This document shows, piece by piece, positions 10,060-18,173 of a stretch of DNA of 64,000 bases. Each line of letters opens with the position of its first letter. Position 1 is the first letter of the stretch. Position numbers and translations under genes: made by a program. Origin of the DNA: a bacterium (GTDB lineage Bacteria > Vulcanimicrobiota > Vulcanimicrobiia > Vulcanimicrobiales > SCRA01). Location: positions 119,458-183,457 of the forward strand of contig SCRI01000060.1 of assembly GCA_004298675.1 (NCBI GenBank). Reading direction: 5' to 3'. The notes beneath the pieces were generated by a model that was not told the DNA's origin, did not search any database, and saw only the letters and a program-made list of their open reading frames with translations.

Positions 10060-10140
10060 AGGTAATCGACATGCAAGGGAACCCATACCGGACGCGGTGG
10101 GCGGCGTGGCTGCCCACCGCGCTCGAAGCGTTAGGTCAAG
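10060..10140 (+). repeat. Right copy of ~81-bp direct repeat (start of the selenoprotein-candidate gene)
   Basis: Same sequence as 6236-6316, offset 3824; contains ATG at 10071. Confidence 0.95.
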
Positions 10141-10853
10141 ATCCGCCGGATTACCGCGCGGTCATGCCGACGATGCCGATGCCGCCACCGCTGACGGAGA
10201 CGCCGTTTGCGGGGCCGGTGAATCCGCGCTCGATCGCCGTCCTGACGACCTCCGGGGCCTACGACGTCAACGTGCATGCGCCGTTTACGGCTTCGTCGAT
10301 CCTAGGCGACGCGACCCATCGCGTCATCGACACCTGGACGCGCGCCGACGCCATCGACTTCGCGCACGAGCACTTCAATCAGGACGCCGCGCGGCGCGAT
10401 CTCGAGAGCGTGCTGCCGCGGGCGTCGATCACCGCGTGCGGCGTGCGCCTCTCGCCGCGCATCATCAGCTGGAGCGGCTTCCTGCTGGATTGGCCAACCT
10501 TCATCGAAGCGACGATCCCGCAGATCGTCAAACAGGTGTCAATCGACCAGCCCGACGCCGCACTGCTCGTGCCGATTTGAAACATGTGCCATTACACGGC
10601 CAGTTTGGTCGCGAGAGCCCTGGAGTCAGCCGGCATCCCAACGGTCATCGTCGGAACGATGCGCTCTTCACTGGTGAACGTACCGCGCGCGCTCGTGACG
10701 CCGTACGCCGATGCGCCCATGGGTCCGCCCGGGGCGCCCATCGTACATCGCGCGGTCGCGGCTAGCGCGCTCGAACTCCTACGGGCAGCGCAGGAACCGG
10801 TGAAGATCGAGTTCGAGTCCGATGATCACGCCGTAACCGTTGAATCCGCGTGA
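10071..10853 (+). CDS. Candidate selenoprotein of the glycine/sarcosine/betaine/D-proline reductase selenoprotein B (GrdB/PrdB-like) family; in-frame TGA at 10578-10580 read as Sec
   Basis: ORFs 10071-10580 and 10584-10853 share one frame, separated only by TGA. Joined protein reads ...DAALLVPI-U-NMCHYTASLVARALESAGIPTVIVG...YADAPMGPPGAPIVHRAVAASALELL. Confidence 0.72.
10597..10611 (+). promoter_or_regulatory. Candidate bacterial SECIS-type hairpin after the in-frame TGA
   Basis: CGGCCA-GTT-TGGTCG: 6-bp stem with one G-U pair, 3-nt loop beginning with G, loop 22 nt after TGA. Confidence 0.4.
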
Positions 10854-12061
10854 CGCCGGTCTGGCCCGGCGAAGAACCGGCCGGCAGACATCACGTAGCG
10901 CACGCGCTCGAGATCGTCGAGCCGTTCGAGCGGATTGCCGTCGACGACCAGCACATCCGCGGATTTCCCCGGCTCAATCGTCCCGAACTCCGCAGCTTTC
11001 CCTAGGGCATCGGCCGCCGTGCTCGTGGCGGCGCGAAGCGCGGCGTCACGCGACATTCCATATCCATGGAGCGCGCGCAGCTCCTCGATCAACGATGGGT
11101 GGGGCGCATTGCACGACCCGGCATCGGTTCCCGCCACAATAGGGATCCCCGCCTGCATGGCCATCTCGAAGCTCTCGCGGTGCGCCTTGACTGCCTTCTT
11201 CGCCTTCTCCACGGCGTACGCCGGAATCCCGGCACGGCCCCCTTCAGCGATCGTCCGATAGATCAGGAGCGTAGGCGTCAAGGCCGTACCCTTCCGCTTC
11301 ATCTCCGCCACGATCTCCTCGGTGAGAAAGATTCCGTGCTCGATCGTGTCGATACCCGCGCGAACGGCGTCCGCGATGCCCCGCGTACCAAGCGCGTGCG
11401 CGGCGACGCGGAGTCCGAAGCGGTGCGCCTCACCGGCGGCGACGGCCAGCTCCTCATAGCTCAGCTCGCTCTGCCCAATCTCCTCGCCCTCCGGGCGACC
11501 GTAGACGCCGCCCGTCGCGGCAACCTTGATCACTCCGGCCGCGCCGTAGACCTGGGTGCGCACGCCGCGTAAGACGGCGTCGGGTCCATCGCACGGGATG
11601 CCCCAAAAGGGATCGTGTCCCCCCGTCATGATGATCGTACGCCCCGACGCTACGACACGCGGCCCCGCGATATGCCCACGGGCGATCGCACGTGAGACGG
11701 TGATGGCGATGTCCCAATTGCTGCCGACATCCCGCACCGTGGTCACGCCGCTGCGCAGTTGCGTCTGAGCGTTGGCTACCGCGCGCACCGTGGTAAGCTG
11801 CGCGCCTTCCGTATCCACAACGGAGACGGGGTCCGGCGATCCGCTCCAGATCAGATGCACGTGCATGTCGATCAGGCCCGGCATGAGGAAGGCGCCCTCT
11901 AGATCGACGACCTGCGCATCGCTCGAGCGAACCGCATCTCCCGTCGGGCGAACGGCTGCGATCTTGCCGTCCTCGACGAGCACGTCCATGTGCGGGCGCG
12001 GTTCAGATCCGGCCCCATCCCACAGCAGCGCGTCACGGAACAGCACGTTCTGGCAAAGCAT
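10826..12061 (-). CDS. Amidohydrolase family protein (imidazolonepropionase-like)
   Basis: GLIDMHVHL metal motif, RVAAHALGTRGI, DTIEHGIFL, VAGTDAGSCN. Confidence 0.88.
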   Translation of the reverse strand: MLCQNVLFRDALLWDGAGSEPRPHMDVLVEDGKIAAVRPTGDAVRSSDAQVVDLEGAFLMPGLIDMHVHLIWSGSPDPVSVVDTEGAQLTTVRAVANAQTQLRSGVTTVRDVGSNWDIAITVSRAIARGHIAGPRVVASGRTIIMTGGHDPFWGIPCDGPDAVLRGVRTQVYGAAGVIKVAATGGVYGRPEGEEIGQSELSYEELAVAAGEAHRFGLRVAAHALGTRGIADAVRAGIDTIEHGIFLTEEIVAEMKRKGTALTPTLLIYRTIAEGGRAGIPAYAVEKAKKAVKAHRESFEMAMQAGIPIVAGTDAGSCNAPHPSLIEELRALHGYGMSRDAALRAATSTAADALGKAAEFGTIEPGKSADVLVVDGNPLERLDDLERVRYVMSAGRFFAGPDRRHADSTVTA

Positions 12062-12098
12062 CGCTTCTCCAACTTCGAAATATCCGGTAATCGGATTG

Positions 12099-12117
12099 TA
12101 TGGTCGTTATATGGTCG
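12099..12117. repeat. Direct repeat TATGGTCG x2 with 11-bp period in a divergent intergenic region
   Basis: gTATGGTCGttaTATGGTCGcc between amidohydrolase and enolase-superfamily genes. Confidence 0.4.
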
Positions 12118-12229
12118 CCGCATTATATCATGGCAACCTCGGGCGCGCACGCGTGGCGTGCTATTTTGCACGCAGCGATAGGGCGCCGTCATGCCAGGCC
12201 GCCACACCTCACCGTCGAACGCCCGCGTC

Positions 12230-13411
12230 ATGCGCATCGTCGACGTGCGGGAGCGCTCCGTACCAATCTCCCGCTACAACGACCCCAGCCTGCCCTCCGG
12301 CGCCCTGACCACCAGCATCGTGGCGCTCACGACCGACGTCGTCCGCGCAGGCAAGCCCGTTGTCGGCTACGGTTTCTCCTCCGTCGGGCGCTACGCGCAG
12401 GGCGGGCTCATCCGCGAGCGCTTCGCGCCGCGGCTGCTCGCGGCCGCCGGCACCGATCTCGCGAACGACGCCGGCACCAACCTCGACCCCTTCCGCGCCT
12501 GGAGCGTCATGCTGAAGGGCGAGAAACCCGGCGGCCACGGCGAGCGCTGCGTCGCCGTGGGGACGCTGGACATGGCCATCTGGGACGCCGCCGCCAAGAT
12601 CGCCGGCGTTCCGCTCTACCGTTTCATCGCGGACGTCGCAGGCGGCGGCCGCACGCCCGACGCAACCATCGCCGCCTATGCCGGCGGCGGCTATCCCTAC
12701 CCCAGCGACGACCTCGCACGTCTCTGTGACGAGGTGCGCGCCATGCTCGCGCAAGGCTTCACGCACGTGAAGATCAAGATCGGCGCGGGGCCGCTCGAAC
12801 GCGACGTCGAGCGCATCGAGGCGGTACAAGCGCTGCTGGCGGCTCCCAACCACCTCGCCGCCGACGCGATGAACGCATACGACGCCGAGCGCTGTCTAGC
12901 GGCCGCCAAGGCCTTGCGCAACCACCACCTCTGGTGGTTCGAGGACATCTGCGATCCGCTCGACTTCGAGACGCAAGCGGCCGCAGTCGACGTGTACCAC
13001 GGCGCGATCGCCGCGGGCGAGGCGCTCTTCTCCGCCGCCGAGGCCAAGCTGCTCGACCGCTACGGCGGCCTACGCCCGGCCAAGGATATCCTGCTCTTCG
13101 ATCCCGTGCATACCTACGGGCTTCCCGGATACCTGCGGATCATCCAGACGATGGAAGACGGCGGCTGGCCGCGCTCCGCCTTCTGGCCGCATGGCGGCCA
13201 CCTCTTCTGCGTCCACGTCGTCAGCGCACTGGGCCTAGGCGGCTGTGAAGTCAATCCGTTCTCCTTCGCGCCGTTTGGCGGCCTCGCCGATGGGATGATG
13301 CCGCAAGATGGCCGCATCGCGCCGCCGCAGGCGCCCGGAATCGGTTTCGAAACGAAGACGGATCTCCACGCGCTCTTCGCGCTCCTCGCACGGGAGGAAG
13401 TTGTGCGATAG
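12230..13411 (+). CDS. Enolase superfamily (mandelate racemase/muconate lactonizing enzyme-like)
   Basis: FTHVKIKIGAGPLERDVERIEAVQ, LAADAMNAYD, WWFEDICDPLDFETQ. Confidence 0.85.
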   Translation: MRIVDVRERSVPISRYNDPSLPSGALTTSIVALTTDVVRAGKPVVGYGFSSVGRYAQGGLIRERFAPRLLAAAGTDLANDAGTNLDPFRAWSVMLKGEKPGGHGERCVAVGTLDMAIWDAAAKIAGVPLYRFIADVAGGGRTPDATIAAYAGGGYPYPSDDLARLCDEVRAMLAQGFTHVKIKIGAGPLERDVERIEAVQALLAAPNHLAADAMNAYDAERCLAAAKALRNHHLWWFEDICDPLDFETQAAAVDVYHGAIAAGEALFSAAEAKLLDRYGGLRPAKDILLFDPVHTYGLPGYLRIIQTMEDGGWPRSAFWPHGGHLFCVHVVSALGLGGCEVNPFSFAPFGGLADGMMPQDGRIAPPQAPGIGFETKTDLHALFALLAREEVVR

Positions 13412-13437
13412 CGCCCTTTGCGAAAGCGAGGTACCTC

Positions 13438-14790
13438 ATGGATCAGACCGACGCGGTCATCCTCGGCAGCGGGCAAGGCGGCGTGCCGCTCGCGGCCGAT
13501 CTCGCGCGCGCGGGCAAGCGCGTCGTTCTCTTCGAGCGCGGGCGCCTCGGAGGCTCGTGCGTCAACTACGGCTGCACGCCCTCGAAAGCGTTACTTGGGG
13601 CGGCGCACGCCGCCGGCCGCGCCCGCGCGGCGGCTCCCCTAGGCATCCACGCCGAGATCCGCGTGGACTTTCCCGCGGTCATGGCTCGCGTGCGCTCCGT
13701 GCGCGACTCCTTCACGAGCGGCGTCGAGAAACGCCTGGCGCGCGCGGGTGTGCGCGTTATTCGCGCGAGCGCCACGTTCACGGGCGAGCGCACGGTCGCC
13801 GCGGACGGCGTCAGCGTGCGCGGCACGACCACCGTGATCAATACCGGGACGAGCCCCGCCATCCCAGCCATTCCCGGGCTTGCAGGCACACCGTTCCTCA
13901 CCAACGAGAACGTCTTCGAACTACGCGAGCTGCCGCGGCGCGTGCTCGTGCTCGGCGGAGGCTATGTCGGCCTCGAACTCGGCCAAGGGCTGGCGCGCCT
14001 GGGGAGCGACGTCCACATCATCGATCACAACCCCCGTGTCCTTGCGCGCGAAGAGGCCGACGTCTCGCAGGTGCTGCAAACCTCGCTCGCGCGCGAAGGC
14101 GTGGCCCTGCACCTCGGCCGCGACGTTCAACACGTCGCGCACGCTGGCGGCAACTTCACGCTTGCGCTCGACGACGGTAGCGAGCTGCAGGGCGACGCCC
14201 TGCTCGTAGCCGTGGGACGCCGGCCCAACACGGCCGCGCTCAACGCTGCAGCCGCTGGCATCACGCTCGACCAGCGCGGCATGGTGGAGATCGACGAGCA
14301 GTTTCATACCAGCGTCCCCGGCGTCTACGCCATCGCCGACGTAGCCGGTCAACCCGCGTTCACGCACGTCTCTTGGGAGGACTACCGCAGGCTCAAGGAC
14401 ATCCTCGCCGGCGGTGACCGCCGGCGTGACGATCGCACGCTCGCCTACGCCGTTTTCACCGAACCGCAAGTCGGCCGCGTGGGCATGACGATCGACGACG
14501 CAAGAGCACGCGGTCTGAACGCGCGCTCGGTCGATCTCCCTGTCTCCCAGATCGCGCGGGCGATCGAATGGGGGCACGATTTCGGCTTCTACCGTTTGGT
14601 GGTCGAAGTCAAGACCGATCGCATCCTCGGCGCCACGCTCGTCGGCTACGAAGCCGCGGAGCTGGTTCACGTGATCCTCGCCCACATGGAGGCTAACTCC
14701 ACATGGCGCGTGCTGGAGCGCTCCGTTCACATCCACCCCACCTACGGTGAAGCGTTGCCGAGCCTGGCACGCCTGCTCCTCAAGACATGA
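13438..14790 (+). CDS. FAD-dependent disulfide oxidoreductase (mercuric reductase / lipoamide dehydrogenase-like)
   Basis: GRLGGSCVNYGCTPSKALL, VLVLGGGYVGLELGQGLAR, GVYAIADVAG, HIHPTYGEALPSL. Confidence 0.92.
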   Translation: MDQTDAVILGSGQGGVPLAADLARAGKRVVLFERGRLGGSCVNYGCTPSKALLGAAHAAGRARAAAPLGIHAEIRVDFPAVMARVRSVRDSFTSGVEKRLARAGVRVIRASATFTGERTVAADGVSVRGTTTVINTGTSPAIPAIPGLAGTPFLTNENVFELRELPRRVLVLGGGYVGLELGQGLARLGSDVHIIDHNPRVLAREEADVSQVLQTSLAREGVALHLGRDVQHVAHAGGNFTLALDDGSELQGDALLVAVGRRPNTAALNAAAAGITLDQRGMVEIDEQFHTSVPGVYAIADVAGQPAFTHVSWEDYRRLKDILAGGDRRRDDRTLAYAVFTEPQVGRVGMTIDDARARGLNARSVDLPVSQIARAIEWGHDFGFYRLVVEVKTDRILGATLVGYEAAELVHVILAHMEANSTWRVLERSVHIHPTYGEALPSLARLLLKT

Positions 14791-14824
14791 GCGCAAACCC
14801 CAGGGACCGGCTCGCTCGGTGATC

Positions 14825-16030
14825 ATGCGCCCCCTCGCACCGCTCTCGAGCCTCGCGCTCATCGCTCAGCTTGCCGGCTGCGGCAGTGGGGGAAGCTCCG
14901 CCCCAGCGGCGGCTCTCGCGGACAGCCCCTTCACGCTCCCTTCGGGCTTCTTCTATTCCACGATAGCGGCTGTGCCCGCGGCGCGCGAGCTAGCCGCGCT
15001 ACCCAACGGCGATCTGCTCGCCGGCACCACCAGCGCGCGCATCTACATCGTCCCCAACGCCGAGAGCGCGGGCGCCGCGGGCGTGCCTCACGTCTTCATC
15101 ACGCTGCCCGCACACGACGGTCCCGCCAACGGCGTCGCGATCGCCCCGGACGCACGCGCGATCTACGCCGCCACCGAGTACCACGTCTATCGCATTCCCT
15201 ACCATCGCGGCGATCAGAGTGAGCCCAGCACGAGCGCGCAAGCCATCGCCGCGATCCGCACCGGCGGCATCGCACCGCACTCCGACGGCGACGTCCACAT
15301 CACCAGCTCAGTCGCGTCCGGCGGCTCCACGGTCTACGCCGGCGTCGGCTCCTCATGCAACGCGTGCACGGAGAGCGGCCCGACGCGCGCCACCATCCAA
15401 GCCATGAGCCTCAGTGGCGCGAACATGCACACGCTGGCCACACGCATCCGCAACCCCATCGCGCTGGCCGTGAACCCAAGCAGCGGCGTGCTCTGGACGG
15501 GCGACGCCGGGCAGGACAACCTCCCCTACGGTCACCCCTATGAGTTCGTCGACGCGGTGACGCTGCAAGCCGGCACGCCGGTCGACTACGGCTGGCCGCA
15601 GTGCGAGGAGGACCGCCGCGCCTACACCAGCGGTGCCAACTGCGCGCGCGTGGCGATCCCGCGCGTGGAGTTTCCCGCTTACACCACGCACATCGGCGCC
15701 GTCTTCTATCCCACCAACTCCAGCGGCACCTACGTCTTTCCGGCGCAGTACGGGGGTGGACTCTTCGTCACCTCGCACGGATCGTGGCACTGCTGCCCCG
15801 CCGCACCGCCGGGCGTGGACTTCGTCCCGCTGCACGGTGACACACCGCGCGTGCCCGTGGACTGGAGAAACCCCAACGCGCAGTGGCAACGTTTCATGGG
15901 CGGCTTTGGAACGCCGTCAAAGACAAGCTACCGAGGGCGTCCAACTGGCATAACCGTCGGCTCGCAAGGCAGCCTCTTCGTCGCGGACGACCAGAACGGC
16001 GCCATCTACCGCATTCGTCCGCGCCGGTGA
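14825..16030 (+). CDS. Exported lipoprotein, sorbosone/glucose dehydrogenase-like beta-propeller
   Basis: Lipobox-like LIAQLAGC; ALPNGDLLAGT, GIRNP-like TRIRNPIALAVNPSSGVLWTGDAGQDNL, VDYGWPQCE. Confidence 0.75.
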   Translation: MRPLAPLSSLALIAQLAGCGSGGSSAPAAALADSPFTLPSGFFYSTIAAVPAARELAALPNGDLLAGTTSARIYIVPNAESAGAAGVPHVFITLPAHDGPANGVAIAPDARAIYAATEYHVYRIPYHRGDQSEPSTSAQAIAAIRTGGIAPHSDGDVHITSSVASGGSTVYAGVGSSCNACTESGPTRATIQAMSLSGANMHTLATRIRNPIALAVNPSSGVLWTGDAGQDNLPYGHPYEFVDAVTLQAGTPVDYGWPQCEEDRRAYTSGANCARVAIPRVEFPAYTTHIGAVFYPTNSSGTYVFPAQYGGGLFVTSHGSWHCCPAAPPGVDFVPLHGDTPRVPVDWRNPNAQWQRFMGGFGTPSKTSYRGRPTGITVGSQGSLFVADDQNGAIYRIRPRR

Positions 16031-16086
16031 GGCGCCGGGCGGCCCCGGCGGGAGATTCAACGGTCTGCGGCATAGGTTAGACACCC

Positions 16087-17052
16087 GTGACCATCGTCAT
16101 CATCTCCCCCGCACGCCTCGGCGCGCTCAACGGCAATGCCGTCACCGCTCGACGCTGGGCGCGCATCCTGCGCTCGCTCGGCCACCGCGTCCGCCTGCAA
16201 ACGCGCTACGACGGCGGGCCATGCGATGTGCTCGTCGCGCTCCATGCGCGGCGTAGCGCCTTCTCAGCGGCGCGCTTTCGCCGTCTCTACCCGCAGCGTC
16301 CCTTGATCGTTGCGCTCACCGGCACCGATCTCTATCACGATATCGGCCGCAGCGCCGCGGCCCGCCGCTCGCTCGAGCTCGCGACGCGGCTGCTGCTGCT
16401 CCAGCCGGAAGGGATCCGCGAGCTGCCCGCGCGCGTGCGCCGCAAGGCGCGTGCCATCATCCAGTCGGCGCCCGCTGCCGCGCACAAGCCCACGCGGCGC
16501 GCGCACGACGACTTCCGCGTCCTCGTGCTCGGCAATCTTCGAGCCGTCAAGGATCCCTTTCGTGCCGCGATGGCGGCACGTTTGTTGCCCGAGGACTCCC
16601 GCATCACCGTGCTGCACGCGGGACGCGCGCTCGAGCCGCGCTACGAAACGCGCGCGCAACGCGAAATGCAGCGCAACCCGCGCTACCGCTGGCTAGGCGA
16701 AGTCAGCCATGCCCGTGCGCGGCGGCTACTCCTCGGCAGCCGCCTCTTGATCGTCAGCTCGCGCAGCGAAGGCGGCGCCAACGTGGTCTCGGAGGCGCTG
16801 GCCGCCGGCGTTCCGATCATCGGCTCCGACATCGGAGGCACGCGTGGGGTACTCGGCGCCGACTATCCCGGCCTCTACCCCGTAGGCGATACGCAGCGTC
16901 TTGCGGCACTACTCGAACGCGCGGAGAGCGACCGTAGCTTTTACGCCGCCCTGTGCCGCTGGTGCCGGCGCCTTGCGCCGCTGGTGCGCCCCACGGCTGA
17001 GCGTAAAGCCTGGCAGCAACTTCTCTCGGAGGTCAACGACACCGCGTTATGA
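16087..17052 (+). CDS. senB: Glycosyltransferase resembling selenosugar synthase SenB
   Basis: MTIVIISPARLGALNGNAVTARRWARILRSLGHRV...PCDVLVALHARRSA...PLIVALTGTDLYHDI...LLLLQPEGIRELP; family recognised from memory. Confidence 0.75.
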   Translation: MTIVIISPARLGALNGNAVTARRWARILRSLGHRVRLQTRYDGGPCDVLVALHARRSAFSAARFRRLYPQRPLIVALTGTDLYHDIGRSAAARRSLELATRLLLLQPEGIRELPARVRRKARAIIQSAPAAAHKPTRRAHDDFRVLVLGNLRAVKDPFRAAMAARLLPEDSRITVLHAGRALEPRYETRAQREMQRNPRYRWLGEVSHARARRLLLGSRLLIVSSRSEGGANVVSEALAAGVPIIGSDIGGTRGVLGADYPGLYPVGDTQRLAALLERAESDRSFYAALCRWCRRLAPLVRPTAERKAWQQLLSEVNDTAL

Positions 17053-18173
17053 AGATCACCGCAATCGAAACGATCGTGCTCAGCATCCCCTACACAAACG
17101 GCGGTCCACCCACGGCGTTCGTCGGCGGGAGCGCGTGGACGTCCCTGCAGATGCTGCTCGTGCGCGTCGATACCGATGCCGGCATCAGCGGCTGGGGCGA
17201 GCCCTTCGGCCATAACGCCTGCCATGCCCTCAAGCAGACCATCGATACGATGATCGCGCCGCTGTGCATCGGGCGCGATGCCGACCGTATCGGCGAGCTG
17301 ATGGCGTCGCTGCAGCACAGCCTGCATCTCTTCGGGCATGGCAACGGGCTCGTGGCGTACGGCCTTTCCGCGCTCGATATCGCGCTCTGGGACATCGCCG
17401 GCAAACAGGCCAATCTGCCGCTCTACCGGATGCTAGGCGGCTCCGGACGCCGCCGGGTGCCCGCATATGCCAGCCTCCTGCGCTACGGCGACCCGGAGCT
17501 GGTGGCGCGCAACGTCGCGGCCGCGCTGGAGCGCGGCTATCGTGAAATCAAACTCCACGAGATCGCCGTCGCGCAGGTCAAGGCGGCGCGGGCGGCTGCG
17601 GGCGAGGGCGTACCGCTCATGCTGGACACGAACTGTCCCTGGACGTCCGAGCAGGCGCGGGAAATGGCACGGCGTTTGGGCGCATACGACCTCGCGTGGC
17701 TCGAGGAGCCGATCTTCCCGCCGGAAGATTTCGCGGCACTCGCGGAGTTGCGCAAGGAGGCCCCCATGAAGCTGGCCGCGGGGGAGAACGCGTCGTGGGC
17801 AGGTGAGTTCAAGTGCATGCTCGATGCCCGCGCCGTCGACGTCGTGCAGCCAAGTGTCACGAAGGTCGGCGGAATCAGCGAGATGCAAAAGGTACTGGCC
17901 TTAGCCGAAGCCTACAACGCGACCGTCGTGCCGCATTGCGCGTACTTCGGTCCGGGTTTTCTCGCCACGCTGCACCTGACGGCGGTACTCCCCGCCGAAA
18001 CCATCTTCGAGCGCCTCTACATGGATCTCGAAGCCAGCCCGTACGGGCAAGCCACCGCTGCCGTGGACGGATACGTCGCGGTACCGCAGGGGCCCGGACT
18101 AGGGCACGATCCCGATCCAGAGGTCATCGAGCGTTATCGCGTGCACGGAGCCGCGGCCGTCACCGCATCCTAG
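17049..18173 (+). CDS. Mandelate racemase/muconate lactonizing enzyme family protein
   Basis: GYREIKLHEIAVAQVKAAR, LMLDTNCPWTSEQA, AWLEEPIFPPED, LAAGENASW; ATGA overlap with preceding gene. Confidence 0.9.
   Translation: MKITAIETIVLSIPYTNGGPPTAFVGGSAWTSLQMLLVRVDTDAGISGWGEPFGHNACHALKQTIDTMIAPLCIGRDADRIGELMASLQHSLHLFGHGNGLVAYGLSALDIALWDIAGKQANLPLYRMLGGSGRRRVPAYASLLRYGDPELVARNVAAALERGYREIKLHEIAVAQVKAARAAAGEGVPLMLDTNCPWTSEQAREMARRLGAYDLAWLEEPIFPPEDFAALAELRKEAPMKLAAGENASWAGEFKCMLDARAVDVVQPSVTKVGGISEMQKVLALAEAYNATVVPHCAYFGPGFLATLHLTAVLPAETIFERLYMDLEASPYGQATAAVDGYVAVPQGPGLGHDPDPEVIERYRVHGAAAVTAS

Follow-up and report, generated by a model that had tools for sequence, protein, structure and literature searches.

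A SenB-type selenosugar synthase gene and its putative dispersed selenoneine pathway in a bacterium of the order Vulcanimicrobiales

Does a SenB-type glycosyltransferase gene that has neither senA nor senC at its side belong to selenoneine biosynthesis, or does it serve another selenium product? The question was raised by the window, i.e. the whole stretch of 64,000 nucleotides analysed here, which lies on contig C46 of genome G000 (assembly of 3.03 Mb, 98.5% complete). A sequence-only reading had recognized this gene, had seen no senA or senC and had suggested a broader selenium metabolism, possibly with a selenosugar product other than selenoneine. Our data strongly favour another explanation, based on sequence comparisons: the product of senB is very probably the Se-glycosyltransferase in a selenoneine pathway with dispersed genes, in which the native senA was lost and an acquired senA fills its role.

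The senB product and its active site

The gene under study is the following:

16087–17052, + strand: senB, selenosugar synthase (321 aa, GTG start; GT-B fold, GT4-like)

Its product was matched by TIGR04348, the NCBIfam equivalog model for SenB, with 393.3 bits over profile positions 1 to 309 of 310, the cut-off of this model being 300 bits; no hit above this cut-off was obtained in 14 control genomes. All four motifs quoted in the sequence-only reading were found in the translation, and the family search that it had proposed supported its assignment, no generic GT4 model being preferred. The best of these, NF038229, reached 123 bits for a cut-off of 400. Phmmer comparison with the solved SenB structures 8jjq, 8fbx and 8k5u gave E values of about 1e-57, the closest solved proteins being the SenBs of Variovorax paradoxus and of a Ramlibacter, about 175 bits above the next glycosyltransferase. 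Membership of Pfam Glycos_transf_1 is common to this product and to other GT4 enzymes, and would also be expected of a generic GT4 glycosyltransferase merely resembling SenB. Such an identity is extremely improbable in view of both score differences and of the retention of the catalytic lysine and of an EGGxNV-type motif; it was rejected as far as sequence allows. The ORF is thus assigned to SenB by its sequence, as an ordinary member of the family and a presumed part of a dispersed selenoneine pathway.

In SenB of V. paradoxus, Asn20, Thr23 and Glu231 were assigned to the sugar, Lys158 to Se–P cleavage and Glu239 to the ribose (PMC10891094). Residue equivalences were deduced from an alignment of 46 SenBs, and V. 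paradoxus numbering is given in brackets. The window SenB displays N17 (N20), T20 (T23), H53 (H58), D81 (D86), K155 (K158), E228 (E231), N232 (H235) and E236 (E239), so that the catalytic N/T/K/E/E set of the crystallised enzyme is intact, as are the equivalents of H58 and D86. It reads EGGANV whereas characterised SenBs read EGGAHV (His235 to Asn), and this variant was also present in nearly all aligned SenBs outside one betaproteobacterial group, that of V. paradoxus. Compared with V. paradoxus SenB (TIGR04348; PDB 8fbx, 8jjq, 8rz3; senABC cluster), the match between these two GT-B selenosugar synthases extends over the whole length, and the phmmer score of 198 bits indicates a distant ortholog, the gene of which stands apart from senA and senC.

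The senB locus and the distribution of senA

The surroundings of senB comprise the following features:

10071–10854, + strand: GrdB/PrdB-like gene with an in-frame TGA
12191–13411, strand not given: enolase-superfamily gene, first of two
14747–16030, + strand: secreted sugar dehydrogenase-like gene (name inferred from sequence), upstream flank of senB
16047–16073, − strand: stub left by deletion of the native senA, with its nine initial codons (ATGCCGCAGACCGTTGAATCTCCCGCC = MPQTVESPA)
17049–18173, + strand: enolase-superfamily gene (mandelate racemase / sugar acid dehydratase-like), its ATG overlapping the senB stop (ATGA)

The earlier description of senB as lying between two enolase-superfamily genes is correct for their order but not for direct contact with the first, since an FAD oxidoreductase gene and the secreted sugar dehydrogenase-like gene intervene. 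The product of the latter had no match in NCBIfam or Pfam, and its homologue in G001, a genome of the same genus, is separated from senB by senA. The distance of about 5 kb between senB and the candidate selenoprotein gene was confirmed (about 5.2 kb to the gene at 10071–10854). The TGA of this gene (LLVPI-U-NMCHYTASL) occurs at the same place in G001 and the protein is conserved on either side, which supports a real selenoprotein.

Two portions of the window, 10069–16021 (about 80%) and 16084–18173 (about 78%), align to a single G001 contig, the second block being also conserved in comparison with L123 and L124. In G001, senA sits between these two blocks, whose separation in the window is no more than some 60 bases. 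Likewise, a full senA divergent from senB occupies this spot in G002, and a divergent senA–senB pair was found in all three same-genus relatives (G001–G003), with an orthologous senB and, in G001, the same flanking genes. The start of the G001 SenA reads MPQAVESPA, against MPQTVESPA for the 27-nt stretch from 16073 to 16047. This stretch can be recognized from these comparisons as the stub of a native senA, the deletion of which accounts for the absence of senA beside senB. The remaining gene does not appear to be decaying: dN/dS of senB was 0.15 relative to G001, similar to the value of 0.14 between G001 and G002, and it thus suggests no relaxation after the loss of senA.

Distribution was analysed among 103 genomes of the order, SenB carriers being defined at E < 1e-50 and a strong SenA as a match that reached or approached the cut-off, or as a fragment adjoining senB at a contig end. 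SenB was present in 27 genomes. A strong SenA was found in 24 of these and in none of the 76 others (Fisher p of about 2e-20, a statistic that ignores shared ancestry). In G027, G033 and G084, which make up the remainder of the SenB carriers, the SenB match was incomplete, broken or placed at the end of a contig, and SelD was found in none of them. In most SenB genomes of the order, senA was divergent beside senB, often with selD adjoining. These occurrences designate SenB as the partner of SenA in this clade and, since a strong SenA occurred only with SenB across the 103 genomes, they make a product other than selenoneine an unnecessary assumption. The senB of G000 is orthologous to that of the senB–senA–selD clusters of the order (e.g. 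G028, G060, G069); compared with these clusters and with the pair of G001–G003, G000 has lost its native senA and carries SenA on another contig.

The deletion of the local senA could also have left SenB as an orphan, yielding a free selenosugar or engaged in another selenium transfer, for instance with the overlapping enolase-superfamily gene, whose adjacency to senB persists in G001 and G002. However, both of these relatives keep an ordinary senA, and the enolase-superfamily gene is therefore no substitute for it. Outside the order, the apparent lack of SenA in some SenB genomes of Planctomycetota and Burkholderiales could be taken in the same sense, but these are drafts for which completeness was not stated. 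Additionally, G000 retains a SenA above the curated cut-off (see below), and an orphan SenB is very unlikely.

The extra-ordinal genomes concerned, which carry SenB but gave no SenA match above the cut-off anywhere, are L017, L018 and L034 (Planctomycetota) and L025 and L029 (Burkholderiales); the three planctomycete genomes could harbour a SenB pathway without SenA. Other neighbouring genes were observed among relatives. Members of the order have an ArsP_1-type permease gene (PF03773) that lies downstream of senA or adjoins selD (L078, 2775–3860; L128, 11579–12241), and its product possibly transports a selenium compound. In L013 (31–1508), egtD is faced by convergent genes for the ATPase and permease of an ABC transporter (PF00005, PF00528), possibly an importer of ergothioneine-like betaines.

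Pathway genes on other contigs and the senA of contig C51

The rest of the genome was found to contain the following features:

G000:C51:41752–43047, strand not given: SenA (506 bits, cut-off 420)
G000:C51, neighbours of senA: thiD on one side, a TnpB-type transposon gene on the other
G000:C43:69356–70279, strand not given: SelD (L007; 380 bits, cut-off 125)
Contig C29: EgtD (311 bits, cut-off 290.9)
Contig C71: SelA (543 bits)
Contig C71: tRNA-Sec (71.7 bits)

The EgtB model gave only 328 bits with the C51 SenA, under its cut-off of 360. No second EgtB-type protein like SenA was seen in G000, and the C51 SenA would therefore be the sole visible consumer of hercynine in this genome. In the SelD frame, the codon at precisely the catalytic position is TGA (SSCAG-U-ASK), and SelD can therefore be considered a selenoprotein itself; the same applies to many members of the order. 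It was the single SelD above the cut-off in G000, where no separate SenC paralogue was found. Clustering of the pathway genes is absent, since senB, senA, selD and egtD are located on four contigs; clustering of selenoneine genes is usual, but their function does not require it.

These data bear on the remaining proposals of the sequence-only reading. A broader selenium metabolism is corroborated by SelD, SelA, tRNA-Sec and the selenoprotein gene near senB. The lack of visible senA and senC holds for the vicinity of senB but not for the genome, where the search for senA, senC and selD suggested at that time revealed SenA on C51 and a selenophosphate synthetase, SelD, on C43. The idea of a selenosugar product other than selenoneine is not supported: it is not needed because senA and selD occur in the genome, EgtD is present as well, senA adjoins senB in three same-genus genomes and its local absence is the result of a deletion, as judged from the remnant.

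The SenA of C51 is only 53–54% identical to those of the three same-genus genomes, which share 73–92% among themselves, and an AU test rejected its grouping with them (p 0.005). A fast-evolving native ortholog is ruled out by this test and by the native remnant. A misbinned contig is likewise unlikely, as the C51 thiD is 86% identical (protein) to that of G001 and other long blocks of C51 match same-genus genomes at 71–85%, about the level of the window itself; C51 can therefore be attributed to the G000 organism. Taken with the divergence of its SenA and the AU rejection, this indicates that probably a foreign senA entered the genome and its native counterpart disappeared, an uncommon gene replacement. 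No closer SenA relatives were found above about 50% identity in plasmids or above 58% in the phylum.

That a senA–senB pair can reside on mobile DNA is indicated by the sequence of the 25-kb plasmid pMPOP01 of Methylorubrum populi (L159), where the divergent pair lies near IS elements and an IS6-family transposase overlaps the end of senA. Both genes move together there, whereas senA alone appears to have been replaced in G000. The C-terminal part of the pMPOP01 SenA deviates from the family, and this protein may be insertion-damaged.

The position of the C51 SenA relative to OvsA deserves separate consideration. OvsA (PDB 8u41, 8ux5) acts as the selenoxide synthase in ovoselenol biosynthesis, ovoselenol being its product. 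In three trees, the C51 SenA was sister to OvsA and a Marinobacter OvsA-like protein (support 98/91 to 99/98; 99/90 for its grouping with OvsA), and phmmer placed OvsA (353 bits) before the V. paradoxus SenA (225 bits). Moreover, just three of its residues are shared exclusively with OvsA, namely V60, F83 and D86 (counting from Met1). It might therefore be an OvsA-related enzyme that puts selenium on histidine or another acceptor rather than on hercynine, SenB then feeding an ovoselenol-type or other product. Several observations oppose this. The OvsA branch is long (1.3), which makes the grouping prone to attraction, and the C51 SenA is nearer to many ordinary SenAs (53–55% identity) than to OvsA (44–46%). 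Eight sites are invariant in SenA but altered in OvsA, among them Y394, N423 and the Glu of HEDMH; the C51 SenA has the SenA state at all eight and the OvsA-type state at none, whereas OvsA has changed Y to M, N to Q and HEDMH to HQNMH. For the presumed wild-type OvsA residues we relied on 8u41, in agreement with the natural Marinobacter homologue; 8ux5 departs from both at three of the sites and looks like a mutant. Finally, EgtD is encoded in G000, with SenA as its only visible hercynine user. An ovoselenol-type outcome has consequently only a slim chance of being correct. Equally improbable is a related view in which the C51 SenA is a living SenA-to-OvsA intermediate and the selenosugar of SenB leads to a product other than, or besides, selenoneine. 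Because the SenA residue is kept at all eight positions, selenoneine is the expected product of the C51 SenA.

Proposed pathway and implications

SelD enzymes make selenophosphate and EgtD enzymes make hercynine from histidine. SenA couples hercynine with the selenosugar, and the adduct, a selenoxide, collapses to selenoneine (PMC10702425). In G000, the selenoprotein SelD of C43 would provide selenophosphate, and SenB would attach its selenium to the sugar moiety of a UDP-sugar, UDP-GlcNAc being the likeliest donor. Lys155, a residue observed in the window SenB whose activity is deduced from that of the characterised enzyme, may help to cleave the Se–P bond and lead to a 1-seleno-sugar. EgtD of C29 would convert histidine into hercynine, which SenA of C51 would couple with the seleno-sugar to form the selenoxide and then selenoneine, the acquired gene doing the job of the senA lost beside senB. 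We infer the partnership of SenB and SenA across contigs from their co-occurrence; substrates, expression and product are likewise predicted. Three points count against the selenoneine pathway, namely the location of SenA and SenB outside one cluster, the grouping of the C51 SenA with OvsA and the replacement of His235 by Asn in SenB.

The probable replacement shows that purifying selection can maintain senB even when its clustered senA has been deleted, a foreign senA being present elsewhere. As a neighbour of OvsA with a SenA active site, the C51 SenA lends itself to studies of how hercynine gave way to histidine as acceptor. The locus is also a warning that genes missing from one window are no ground for inferring a new pathway. 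Selenoneine biosynthesis would also be extended to a bacterial lineage that has received little study and shows a patchy distribution of the pathway (27 of 103 genomes of the order).
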